From: Spirochaetia bacterium | GTDB lineage: Bacteria > Spirochaetota > UBA4802 > UBA5550 | DNA length: 64,000 nt | Direction: 5' to 3' | Assembly (NCBI GenBank): GCA_009885955.1 | Contig: VFJS01000043.1 | Location: forward strand, 1-64,000 | In this document: piece after piece, positions 1 through 48,561 of the stretch | Layout: the number at the start of each line of letters is the position of its first letter | Position numbering within the stretch: the stretch's first letter is position 1 | Position numbers and translations under genes: made by a program | The notes under the pieces: generated by a model | Told to the model about the DNA's origin: nothing | Databases searched by the model: none | Seen by the model: only the letters and a program-made list of their open reading frames with translations

Positions 1-79
1 GTGTTCACTTTCGTTACGGCCTGCGAACTGATTCAAAAAGCTTCAACCTTTCCCGTCACCGGTCAGGTTGTTTTATCAT

Positions 80-160
80 CTCCCGAGTGAAAGACCAATT
101 ACTCGTGTCGGATTTCCACCGACTGGTATTTTCAGCACCTCGTGGCGCACCGGAGACACG
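80..160. repeat. Dispersed repeat, family C, copy 1
   Basis: About 78 bp containing GAAAGACCAATTACTCG and TTTCCACCGACTGGTAT. A diverged copy in the same orientation lies at about 35842-35920. The sequence has no coding signal. The rest of positions 1-220 shows no gene that I can support. Confidence 0.6.
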
Positions 161-4999: not shown

Positions 5000-5977
5000 A
5001 TGGATAGATTTTACCGCATTGCACAGGATATACTCAAGGGATATGAAATAACCTTTCCCGAGGCCCAATCTTTGATGGAAACGGCTGACAAAGACGTCCT
5101 CAGCCTTGTTTTTGCAGCCAATACCATCCGTGAGCATTTCACGGGGAAATTTGTGGATCTCTGCTCTATCATCAATGCAAAGTCGGGAAACTGCAGCGAA
5201 AACTGCTCCTTCTGCGCACAGTCGTCGCACCACAAGACTGAAATAAAAAAGTACCCGCTCCTTGACAGCAATGCCATCATAGCAAGGTCACGGGAGGTAT
5301 ATGCCTCGGGTATCAAACACTTCGGAATTGTAATCGCAGGGAAGGGCGTGACGCCGAATGACTTCACCAGGGTAGTGGAAACCGTTTCCATTATTAAGGG
5401 CGAGATAAAGGAGAGCCAGACCATAGACTGCGGCCTGGGCCTTCTCACTCCGGCTCAGGCCGGGGAATTACGGGATGCCGGCGCCGGAATTTACAACCAC
5501 AACCTGGAATGCTCCAGGTCCTACTTTCCCGAGATGTGCACAACGCACACCTACGATGAAAGGGTTGAGACCATACGGAATGCCCACGAGGCCGGACTCC
5601 TCACCTGAGTCGGCTGCATATTCGGGCTCGGCGAGTCTGACAAGCAGCGGGTGGAAGTGGCATTTGAAATAAAAAACCTGTGTACAACGGCTGCCATCCC
5701 GCTTAATTTCCTGAACCAGATAGAAGGGACCAGGACCTACGGCCGCCCCAAACTGAGGCCCCTTGAAGTCCTGAAAATCATCTCCGTATTCCGGTTCATC
5801 TTCCCGGACAGGAAGCTCCGCATGGGCGGCGGCCGCGAAGTCAACCTCCGTGACCTGCAGCCCCTCATGTTTCTTGCGGGAATCAACGCCACGATTACGG
5901 GCAACTACCTCACCACTACGGGCAAGGATACCGGGGAGGATATGAGGATGATCAGTGACCTGGGGCTGGAGGTTTGA
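5000..5977 (+). CDS. bioB: Biotin synthase with in-frame UGA (probable selenocysteine 203)
   Basis: Radical SAM enzyme that inserts sulfur into dethiobiotin, the last step of biotin synthesis, in the cytoplasm. The frame runs 325 codons, close to the usual 320-350, with one internal UGA at 5606-5608 (codon 203) and a normal UGA stop at 5975-5977. C65-x3-C69-x2-C72 binds the radical SAM 4Fe-4S cluster. YNHNLE and GGGREVNLRDLQP are diagnostic BioB motifs. UGA 203 aligns with the Cys of the family motif C-S-G-x-I-x-G-(L/M) (E. coli Cys188, an auxiliary-cluster ligand); here the motif reads U-V-G-C-I-F-G-L. Cys97 of E. coli is Gly109 here and Cys128 is shifted to C144, so this is not a classical 2Fe-2S type I enzyme. 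It resembles the anaerobe type II BioB described with an auxiliary 4Fe-5S cluster. The alternative reading is a Cys-to-UGA nonsense mutation. Confidence 0.85.
5613..5648 (+). promoter_or_regulatory. Candidate bacterial SECIS hairpin in bioB
   Basis: Immediately after the UGA at 5606-5608 and a 4-nt spacer, GCTGC (5613-5617) pairs with GCAGC (5644-5648). An asymmetric internal loop (ATAT / CAA) follows. An upper 8-bp stem TCGGGCTC (5622-5629) pairs with GAGTCTGA (5633-5640), including two G-U pairs, and is closed by a GGC triloop. The apical loop begins 22 nt after the UGA and starts with G. Both properties match the published bacterial SECIS pattern of loop distance about 16-37 nt and G among the first loop bases. 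Confidence 0.7.
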
Positions 5978-6140: not shown

Positions 6141-6440
6141 TCACCTCCCCGATTTAAGCAACCGGATTGCTTTCAGTACATTTTTCTCATCAACAAGCTG
6201 ATCGGTAACATACCTGTGTAGGATACTCGCAATAAAAGTCTGATAAGGCAGACCTTCCATTGCTGATTTTTCCCTTAATTTTTCCAGATCAAAAGCATTT
6301 ATCCTGATATTTATGTTTTTAACTTTTTTTGCATTATCGATAATTGATTCAATTCGTTTGCGTTTTGACCCTGAAACGGGCTGATATGATGATGAAGAGG
6401 CCTCTATTTCCTTCTCAACATTATCAAGTTTTGTTTTCAT
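6141..6440 (-). CDS. CopG/BrnA-like antitoxin
   Basis: A 99-residue protein with a flexible, charged N-terminus and a C-terminal ribbon-helix-helix-like region: NINIRINAFDLEKLREKSAMEGLPYQ gives a short beta strand followed by two helices. It lies downstream of, and overlaps by 4 nt (ATGA), the BrnT-like gene, which is the toxin-first order normal for brnTA systems. It would neutralise the toxin and repress the shared promoter. The family call rests on pattern and position. Confidence 0.7.
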   Translation of the reverse strand: MKTKLDNVEKEIEASSSSYQPVSGSKRKRIESIIDNAKKVKNINIRINAFDLEKLREKSAMEGLPYQTFIASILHRYVTDQLVDEKNVLKAIRLLKSGR

Positions 6441-6700
6441 GATTTGTCTCCGTATATTTTATGAAATTTTCTGCTTGGAAATATTGTTTTAAGAATAATA
6501 TTATTATTCTTATCGATCATAAAAGGAACCGCATACGTATAATCATCATAAGGTATAATAAATAGAAATTGATCCTTTCTGGATTTGTTTTCTAAAATGT
6601 CATAATATTTTTTTTCAAGAATAATTTCTGAAATTAAATCAAATGATAGATTTCTATTTTCAATGAGTCTTATATTTTTTTCCGGATCCCATAAAATCAT
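6437..6700 (-). CDS. BrnT-like ribonuclease toxin
   Basis: An 87-residue protein with the BrnT layout: DPEKNIRLIENRNLSFDLI at the N-terminus (family pattern D-P-x-K-x-x-x-N/L-I-x-x-R-x-x-S-F), then a central strand pair and a terminal IILKTIFPSRKFHKIYG matching the Arg/Lys-rich end of the fold. Family members cleave RNA and are held by the downstream antitoxin. It is first in a two-gene operon and is isolated from other toxin loci in the window. The region 6701-6888 holds no gene and is A+T-rich. Confidence 0.75.
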   Translation of the reverse strand: MILWDPEKNIRLIENRNLSFDLISEIILEKKYYDILENKSRKDQFLFIIPYDDYTYAVPFMIDKNNNIILKTIFPSRKFHKIYGDKS

Positions 6701-47950: not shown

Positions 47951-48355
47951 TCATTTAATCACAATCTCTGCCGAAATCTTCAGTTTAACAACAGACTCTG
48001 CAGGATCATTGGTATAGACCCTGATTATTTTTTCAACTTTTCCGAGACGGTCACTGGTATCGAATTTCACTTCCACTTTCCCCTCGCCGCCGGCCGGGAC
48101 CTCCTTATCTGAAAGGAGAGCTGCTGTGCAGCCTCACCCTGCATCTATCTCCCTTATATAGAGAGTTTCACCGCCCGTATTTTTAAAGATAAATACATGG
48201 GTAACCGTTTCTCCCTGTTTTATAACGCGGAAATCATGGCTCTTCTCCTTGAAAAATATCTGAGCCTCGCCGGCTGAGAGATATACCCCTGTTCCAAAAA
48301 CAGAAAGGATATAAGCGGCTATTATAATCATTTTAACCGGTCTGAACATAGTCAT
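47951..48355 (-). CDS. Exported DUF1573 protein with in-frame UGA (probable selenocysteine)
   Basis: The frame upstream of the UGA (48134-48136) encodes a signal peptide (VKMIIIAAYILSVFGTGVYLSAGEA) and the first half of a DUF1573 domain (FFKEKSHDFRVIKQGETVTHVFIFKNTGGETLYI). In the same frame below the UGA the rest follows: GCTAALLSDKEVPAGGEGKVEVKFDTSD, then VYTNDP and IVIK, ending in UGA at 47951-47953. DUF1573 has the conserved motif (S/A)-C-G-C-T; here it is G-U-G-C-T, with UGA for the first Cys. With the start at MTM (48355) it has 134 residues and U74; an earlier start at 48364 is possible. The role of DUF1573 is unknown, but a U-x-C redox or metal site in the periplasm is implied. A nonsense mutation is the alternative. 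Confidence 0.75.
48100..48119 (-). promoter_or_regulatory. Candidate SECIS hairpin in the DUF1573 gene
   Basis: Downstream of the UGA on the minus strand, UCUCCUU (48119-48113) pairs with AAGGAGG (48106-48100) around the loop UCAGAU. There are seven pairs, one of them G-U. The loop starts 22 nt after the UGA, the same as in bioB. The first two loop bases are U and C, so it does not meet the G rule of the usual consensus. A second small hairpin GCUGC/GCAGC lies directly after the UGA. Confidence 0.45.
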
Positions 48356-48561
48356 TTCTTTCATTCCCGAATATTCAAATCTTATCAGGTACAATATTAT
48401 TACAATCAAAAATAGTCAATAAAAATATCAAGGGGAAAATGCCCGCCTCATTGCCATAGTACATATGAAATTCCCTGAAACAAAATTACCGGGAAGGCAT
48501 ATATTTGATTTGACTCCCGGAAAAGCCGGAGTTAAGAATGAATGCCTGAAGGGATATTATA

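Follow-up and report, generated by a model that had tools for sequence, protein, structure and literature searches.

The window analysed here, a 64,000-nucleotide stretch of a Spirochaetia genome (positions 1 to 64,000 of contig VFJS01000043.1), contains a bioB gene whose product is very probably a functional biotin synthase of the anaerobic type (type II-like), with the UGA at codon 203 decoded as selenocysteine (Sec). This reading draws on the combination of an intact frame, the location of the UGA at an invariant cysteine, a SECIS-like hairpin, a full set of Sec genes, other selenoproteins in the genome, the presence of bioA, bioF and bioD, and the single BioB.

An intact biotin synthase gene with an internal UGA codon

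The relevant features of the gene, all on the forward strand, are the following:

5000–5977, forward: bioB, biotin synthase, 325 codons with an internal TGA (translation, profile matches, Foldseek)
5192–5215, forward: radical SAM motif C65-x3-C69-x2-C72, invariant in the alignment
5426–5431, forward: Asp143-Cys144, in and beside the column of the E. coli auxiliary-cluster ligand Cys128 (alignment)
5537–5539, forward: Cys180 (MCTT), shared by 26 of 35 homologues, a possible additional ligand of the cluster (alignment)
5606–5608, forward: UGA codon 203, predicted Sec, in the column of E. coli BioB Cys188 (alignment)
5613–5648, forward: bSECIS-like hairpin with a 5-bp lower stem, an internal loop, an 8-bp upper stem and the apical loop GGC at 5630–5632 (folding)
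5615–5617, forward: Cys206 (UGC), in place of the Gly of 31 of 35 homologues, which makes the site U-x-x-C (alignment, folding)

Translation agrees with the original prediction of a single intact 325-codon frame with codon 203 as its sole internal UGA: the frame yields 325 residues followed by a terminal TGA and is free of frameshifts. Read through the TGA, the product matches the bioB equivalog model TIGR00433 with 366 bits (cut-off 225) and contains the Radical_SAM (PF04055) and BATS (PF06968) domains, the latter (residues 234–324) lying entirely past the TGA. The AlphaFold model, with Cys placed at position 203, adopts the BioB fold with a mean pLDDT of 95.7. The best Foldseek match of this model is the Veillonella parvula biotin synthase 8vdw (TM 0.96, 44% identity), followed by B. 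obeum 8vcw and then by E. coli 1r30; the first two are structures of type II biotin synthase. The closest BioB homologues are only 44–46% identical.

Two other elements were observed in the window. A fragment of a Group II intron (D1-D4-4, Rfam RF02003) lies at the window edge (9–125, reverse strand), and two short overlapping ORFs 3' of bioB, on the opposite strand (6141–6700, reverse), look like a putative BrnT/BrnA-type toxin-antitoxin pair.

The UGA codon occupies a conserved cluster-ligand position

Two alignments, with 31 and 35 homologues, show Cys in the codon 203 column of every other BioB, including that of E. coli (C188), and the sequence around codon 203 reads U203-V-G-C206; thus, the UGA does lie at the conserved cluster-ligand cysteine, in the U-x-x-C arrangement, as originally predicted. 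A stop codon can arise in bioB by 93 single-base routes, of which 19 produce TGA and 4 produce TGA at an invariant Cys.

The auxiliary-cluster site differs from that of the homologues in other respects as well. Gly109 occupies the column of E. coli Cys97, and the column of Cys128 contains Asp143 with Cys144 adjacent, which agrees with the earlier observation that Gly replaces Cys97 and that C144 is shifted relative to Cys128; 34 of the 35 homologues keep Cys in column 143. The column of Arg279 corresponds to E. coli Arg260. Among the 50 well-conserved columns (those in which at least 88% of the homologues agree), BioB deviates at four, namely, 143 (C to D), 145 (S to G), 206 (G to C) and 240, and the first three of these belong to the auxiliary-cluster site. 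In the alignment, this clustering is unlike the scatter expected of decay. Taken together, Asp143/Cys144, the added Cys206 and Cys180 suggest, at the sequence level, a rebuilt cluster site. The UGC codon of Cys206 belongs to the lower stem of the hairpin (5' arm), so part of the Cys206 change could serve the RNA. Besides 144 and 206, cysteines 171 (5510–5512) and 228 (5681–5683) are absent from the aligned homologues.

These features bear on the possibility that the UGA is a recent nonsense mutation (TGC or TGT to TGA), so that bioB would have turned into a pseudogene only recently, or would be a null allele confined to the strain, in an organism that imports biotin. The loss of the Cys128-column residue is compatible with such decay; however, conserved columns are retained on both sides of the TGA, and the coding bias persists 3' of it.

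A SECIS-like hairpin follows the UGA

The 45 nucleotides starting with the TGA fold with an energy of -18.2 kcal/mol, with a spacing of 21 nt between the UGA and the loop. The hairpin satisfies every rule for bacterial SECIS elements given in PMC13188914 (loop of 3–9 nt with a G in the first two positions, upper stem of 4–16 bp, spacing of 16–37 nt and MFE of -7.5 or lower). These rules are loose, being passed by about 15% of all codons and by about one-third of synonymous recodings, so that a pass alone is no evidence, and the argument rests on stability under recoding and on a common plan. The stability of the bioB hairpin is matched by 0.26% of synonymous recodings under genome-like codon usage and by 1.0% under the usage of bioB itself (p about 0.003–0.01), and none of the 35 Cys-containing homologues has a hairpin of equal stability at the same place. 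With respect to the plan, a formate dehydrogenase hairpin of the same genome is similar to that of bioB, with a lower stem of 3 bp, an upper stem of 8 bp, the loop GTC and a spacing of 19, and the SelD hairpin, the energy of which is not unusual by itself, has the identical loop GGC and a spacing of 17. Judging by these predicted folds, the UGA is followed by a SECIS-like hairpin that resembles the genome's own SECIS hairpins.

The coincidence of a stop located precisely at an invariant Cys (4 of the 93 routes) with an unusually stable hairpin at the SECIS position (p 0.003–0.01) renders the nonsense mutation improbable. The same coincidence argues against a one-base sequencing or assembly error that would conceal a true TGC, TGT or TGG codon. 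A single-base event would suffice for such an error, and the assembly is a draft of 117 contigs, but an error in the codon can create neither the hairpin, which is made of bases outside the codon, nor the changes at Cys206 and Asp143/Cys144. We consider such an error very improbable, even more so than a mutation.

The genome encodes the selenocysteine machinery and other selenoproteins

The source genome (4.77 Mb, 117 contigs, 98.35% complete) was searched for the four Sec genes, as proposed along with the original prediction, and all four were found, so that the objection of missing Sec machinery fails. The tRNA-Sec scores 70.9 bits, well over the cut-off, and was confirmed by ARAGORN, with the anticodon UCA; selA (492 bits), selB (308 bits) and selD (365 bits) all exceed their cut-offs. 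The selA and selB genes are neighbours on contig C112, which also carries selD. The other candidate selenoprotein genes, the first three elsewhere in the genome and the last in the window, are:

C112:58989 (L075): SelD, in-frame TGA in GSG-U-ASK, with a bSECIS-like hairpin
C12:62206 (L092) and C7:98048 (L087): two enzymes of the formate dehydrogenase type with Sec, both followed up by a bSECIS-like hairpin in the gene
47951–48415, reverse: DUF1573-type selenoprotein gene, TGA at 48136–48134 in DAG-U-GCTA (OS_HP2 match, U-G-C-T motif)

Thus, at least three standard selenoproteins, SelD and the two molybdopterin enzymes of the formate dehydrogenase type (TGA in IEHQARI-U-HSSTV and IDHCARL-U-HAPTV), have an internal TGA where one is expected. 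The product of the reverse-strand gene in the window scores 92.3 bits against the OS_HP2 (seleno)protein model NF041425, under the cut-off of 100, and its assignment to DUF1573, a family listed among selenoproteins in the literature, is based on the U-G-C motif rather than on a Pfam match. The minimum-energy hairpin of this gene has no G among the first two nucleotides of its loop, and its putative SECIS may be atypical.

Given the Sec machinery and the other TGA-containing selenoprotein genes, one of them in the window, this organism very probably recodes UGA as Sec, also in genes of the contig studied here. This full Sec system also weighs against a nonsense mutation in bioB. Reading of the UGA as another amino acid, in particular tryptophan (code 4/25), or leaky readthrough has no specific support: UGA terminates ordinary genes here, bioB included, the homologous column is Cys rather than Trp, and the same codon occurs in the canonical Sec motifs of SelD and formate dehydrogenase. 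We therefore reject UGA as tryptophan and give this class of explanations a negligible probability.

bioB is the only biotin synthase gene of a genome with bioA, bioF and bioD

The bioD, bioF and bioA genes form a cluster on contig C9, and bioB is located elsewhere; the bioF match is strong yet under the strict cut-off (388 vs 426). A second BioB was looked for in the same genome, and none was found. A nonsense mutation would thus have struck the only BioB of a genome with intact bioA, bioF and bioD, which speaks against it.

A different possibility is that the UGA does encode Sec, but in an enzyme that derives from BioB and has a different function, such as a different sulfur insertion or cluster repair. 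The separation of bioB from the bioAFD cluster, the auxiliary-site residues, which are unlike both type I and the homologue consensus, and the identity of just 44–46% to the nearest homologue are all compatible with this explanation. We nevertheless regard it as unlikely: the score of 366 bits is far over the equivalog cut-off of 225, the protein is the sole BioB alongside bioA, bioF and bioD, and, away from the cluster site, it keeps the conserved positions.

The tetranucleotide profile of the window correlates at 0.93–0.97 with those of the sel and bio contigs of the genome, compared to 0.35–0.73 with short loci of other genomes, a contrast that is approximate because these loci are short. 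A binning error is disfavoured by this agreement in composition between the window and the sel and bio contigs.

Relationship to known systems and proposed role of the selenocysteine

Type II biotin synthases of anaerobes contain a [4Fe-5S] auxiliary cluster, according to Lachowicz et al. 2024 (cited in PMC11099021). The BioB described here resembles these enzymes in its fold (TM 0.96 with 8vdw and 0.93 with 8vcw), the radical SAM motif, the BATS domain, the lack of Cys in the Cys97 column, and the presence of Cys55 and Cys180, as in most of the aligned homologues. It differs from them in the Sec codon at the Cys188 column, in Asp143/Cys144 where 34 of 35 homologues have Cys143, and in Cys206 instead of Gly. 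The original prediction held that the missing type I ligands fit a type II enzyme; the loss of Cys97 does fit, whereas the loss of the Cys128-column residue is atypical. Because nearly all homologues have Cys where this protein has Asp143, we denote it type II-like rather than a proven type II member.

The type I enzyme of E. coli (1r30) carries a [2Fe-2S] auxiliary cluster on Cys97, Cys128, Cys188 and Arg260 (PMC11099021). The same reaction is expected for the protein studied here, judging from its sequence, and the columns of Sec203 and Arg279 correspond to Cys188 and Arg260; in contrast, the three Cys ligand columns are here occupied by Gly109, Asp143 and the predicted Sec203.

Radical SAM selenoproteins are already known, namely, rSAM_SeCys (TIGR04167) and TrsS (NF045646) (PMC13188914). 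They share with BioB the location of Sec inside a radical SAM protein, but the BioB product matches neither of these two models, and the families are different. Sec is also known in Fe-S proteins, including HesB-like, CopZ-type 2Fe-2S and PRK07118-type proteins (PMC13188914); these similarly handle or carry Fe-S clusters, but, unlike BioB, none is a sulfur-inserting enzyme with a cluster as the source of the product sulfur. Since Sec in radical SAM and Fe-S proteins has precedents, a Sec-containing BioB counts as a novel selenoprotein family and BioB variant, not as a new kind of system. The earlier statement that no such BioB had been described still stands for the literature searched: the 2026 catalogue of prokaryotic selenoproteins has no entry for BioB and no mention of biotin, and no selenium-containing biotin synthase was found in the literature searched.

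The chemistry of biotin synthase involves a SAM-derived radical, and attack on the Fe-S cluster, whose sulfur the enzyme uses up, and the rebuilding of this cluster have long been debated. The sulfur comes from the auxiliary cluster of the enzyme itself (PMC11099021). In the mechanism that we propose for the Sec-containing BioB, SelB bound to the hairpin would deliver Sec-tRNA to the UGA, and Sec203 would stand in for the Cys ligand of the auxiliary Fe-S cluster that donates sulfur in the conversion of dethiobiotin to biotin, with the neighbouring Cys206 and the reshaped Asp143/Cys144 partner site adjusting to Sec203. The selenolate would most likely tune how stable the cluster is, its redox potential, or the way in which it releases and reloads sulfur; as a second possibility, a U203–C206 selenenylsulfide pair could aid cluster rebuilding or reloading. 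Only tentatively do we suggest that the sulfur-donating cluster is directly ligated by Sec203, which would take part, with Cys206, in sulfur release or reloading and so change the way BioB loses and regains sulfur, for example, by letting it complete more turnovers than the E. coli enzyme, which consumes itself. Selenoproteins are mostly thiol-redox enzymes; if the reading is correct, they would extend to a vitamin-forming sulfur-insertion enzyme, and a cluster ligand that naturally contains selenium would offer spectroscopy an intrinsic probe (77Se, Se K-edge) and allow the role of that ligand to be tested directly.

TGA-containing bioB genes are rare

In the phylum of the source organism, 134 of 393 genomes encode BioB, as do about 97 of 398 genomes in Bacillota (the phylum to which the Lachnospiraceae record L044 belongs) and 193 of 395 genomes in Bacteroidota (that of the Bacteroidales record L043). 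Among the matches listed, from approximately 390–420 BioB-bearing genomes of the three phyla, no other BioB has an internal TGA; a second one was found neither in the same order (46 genomes) nor in the collections of genome contigs and viral contigs (10 viral BioB). At codon 203, the aligned homologues have Cys (35 of 35), and no UGA other than that of the window occurs there among the matches listed. The trait therefore appears to be rare, and the TGA-containing BioB is known here from one genome. In the selenoprotein field, a TGA-containing homologue elsewhere is a supporting filter and not an absolute requirement; the lack of one among these matches is a point in favour of a nonsense mutation.

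The occurrence of broken BioB copies is another such point. The sole other internal stop among the listed matches of the genome search is a TAG in a second BioB copy of a genome from the Bacillota sample (G752:C39:5018–5929). This genome also encodes an intact BioB, and the TAG-containing copy is likely a pseudogene, unless TAG is recoded there. One BioB in the viral collection (L100) contains two stops but has Cys at the codon 203 column.
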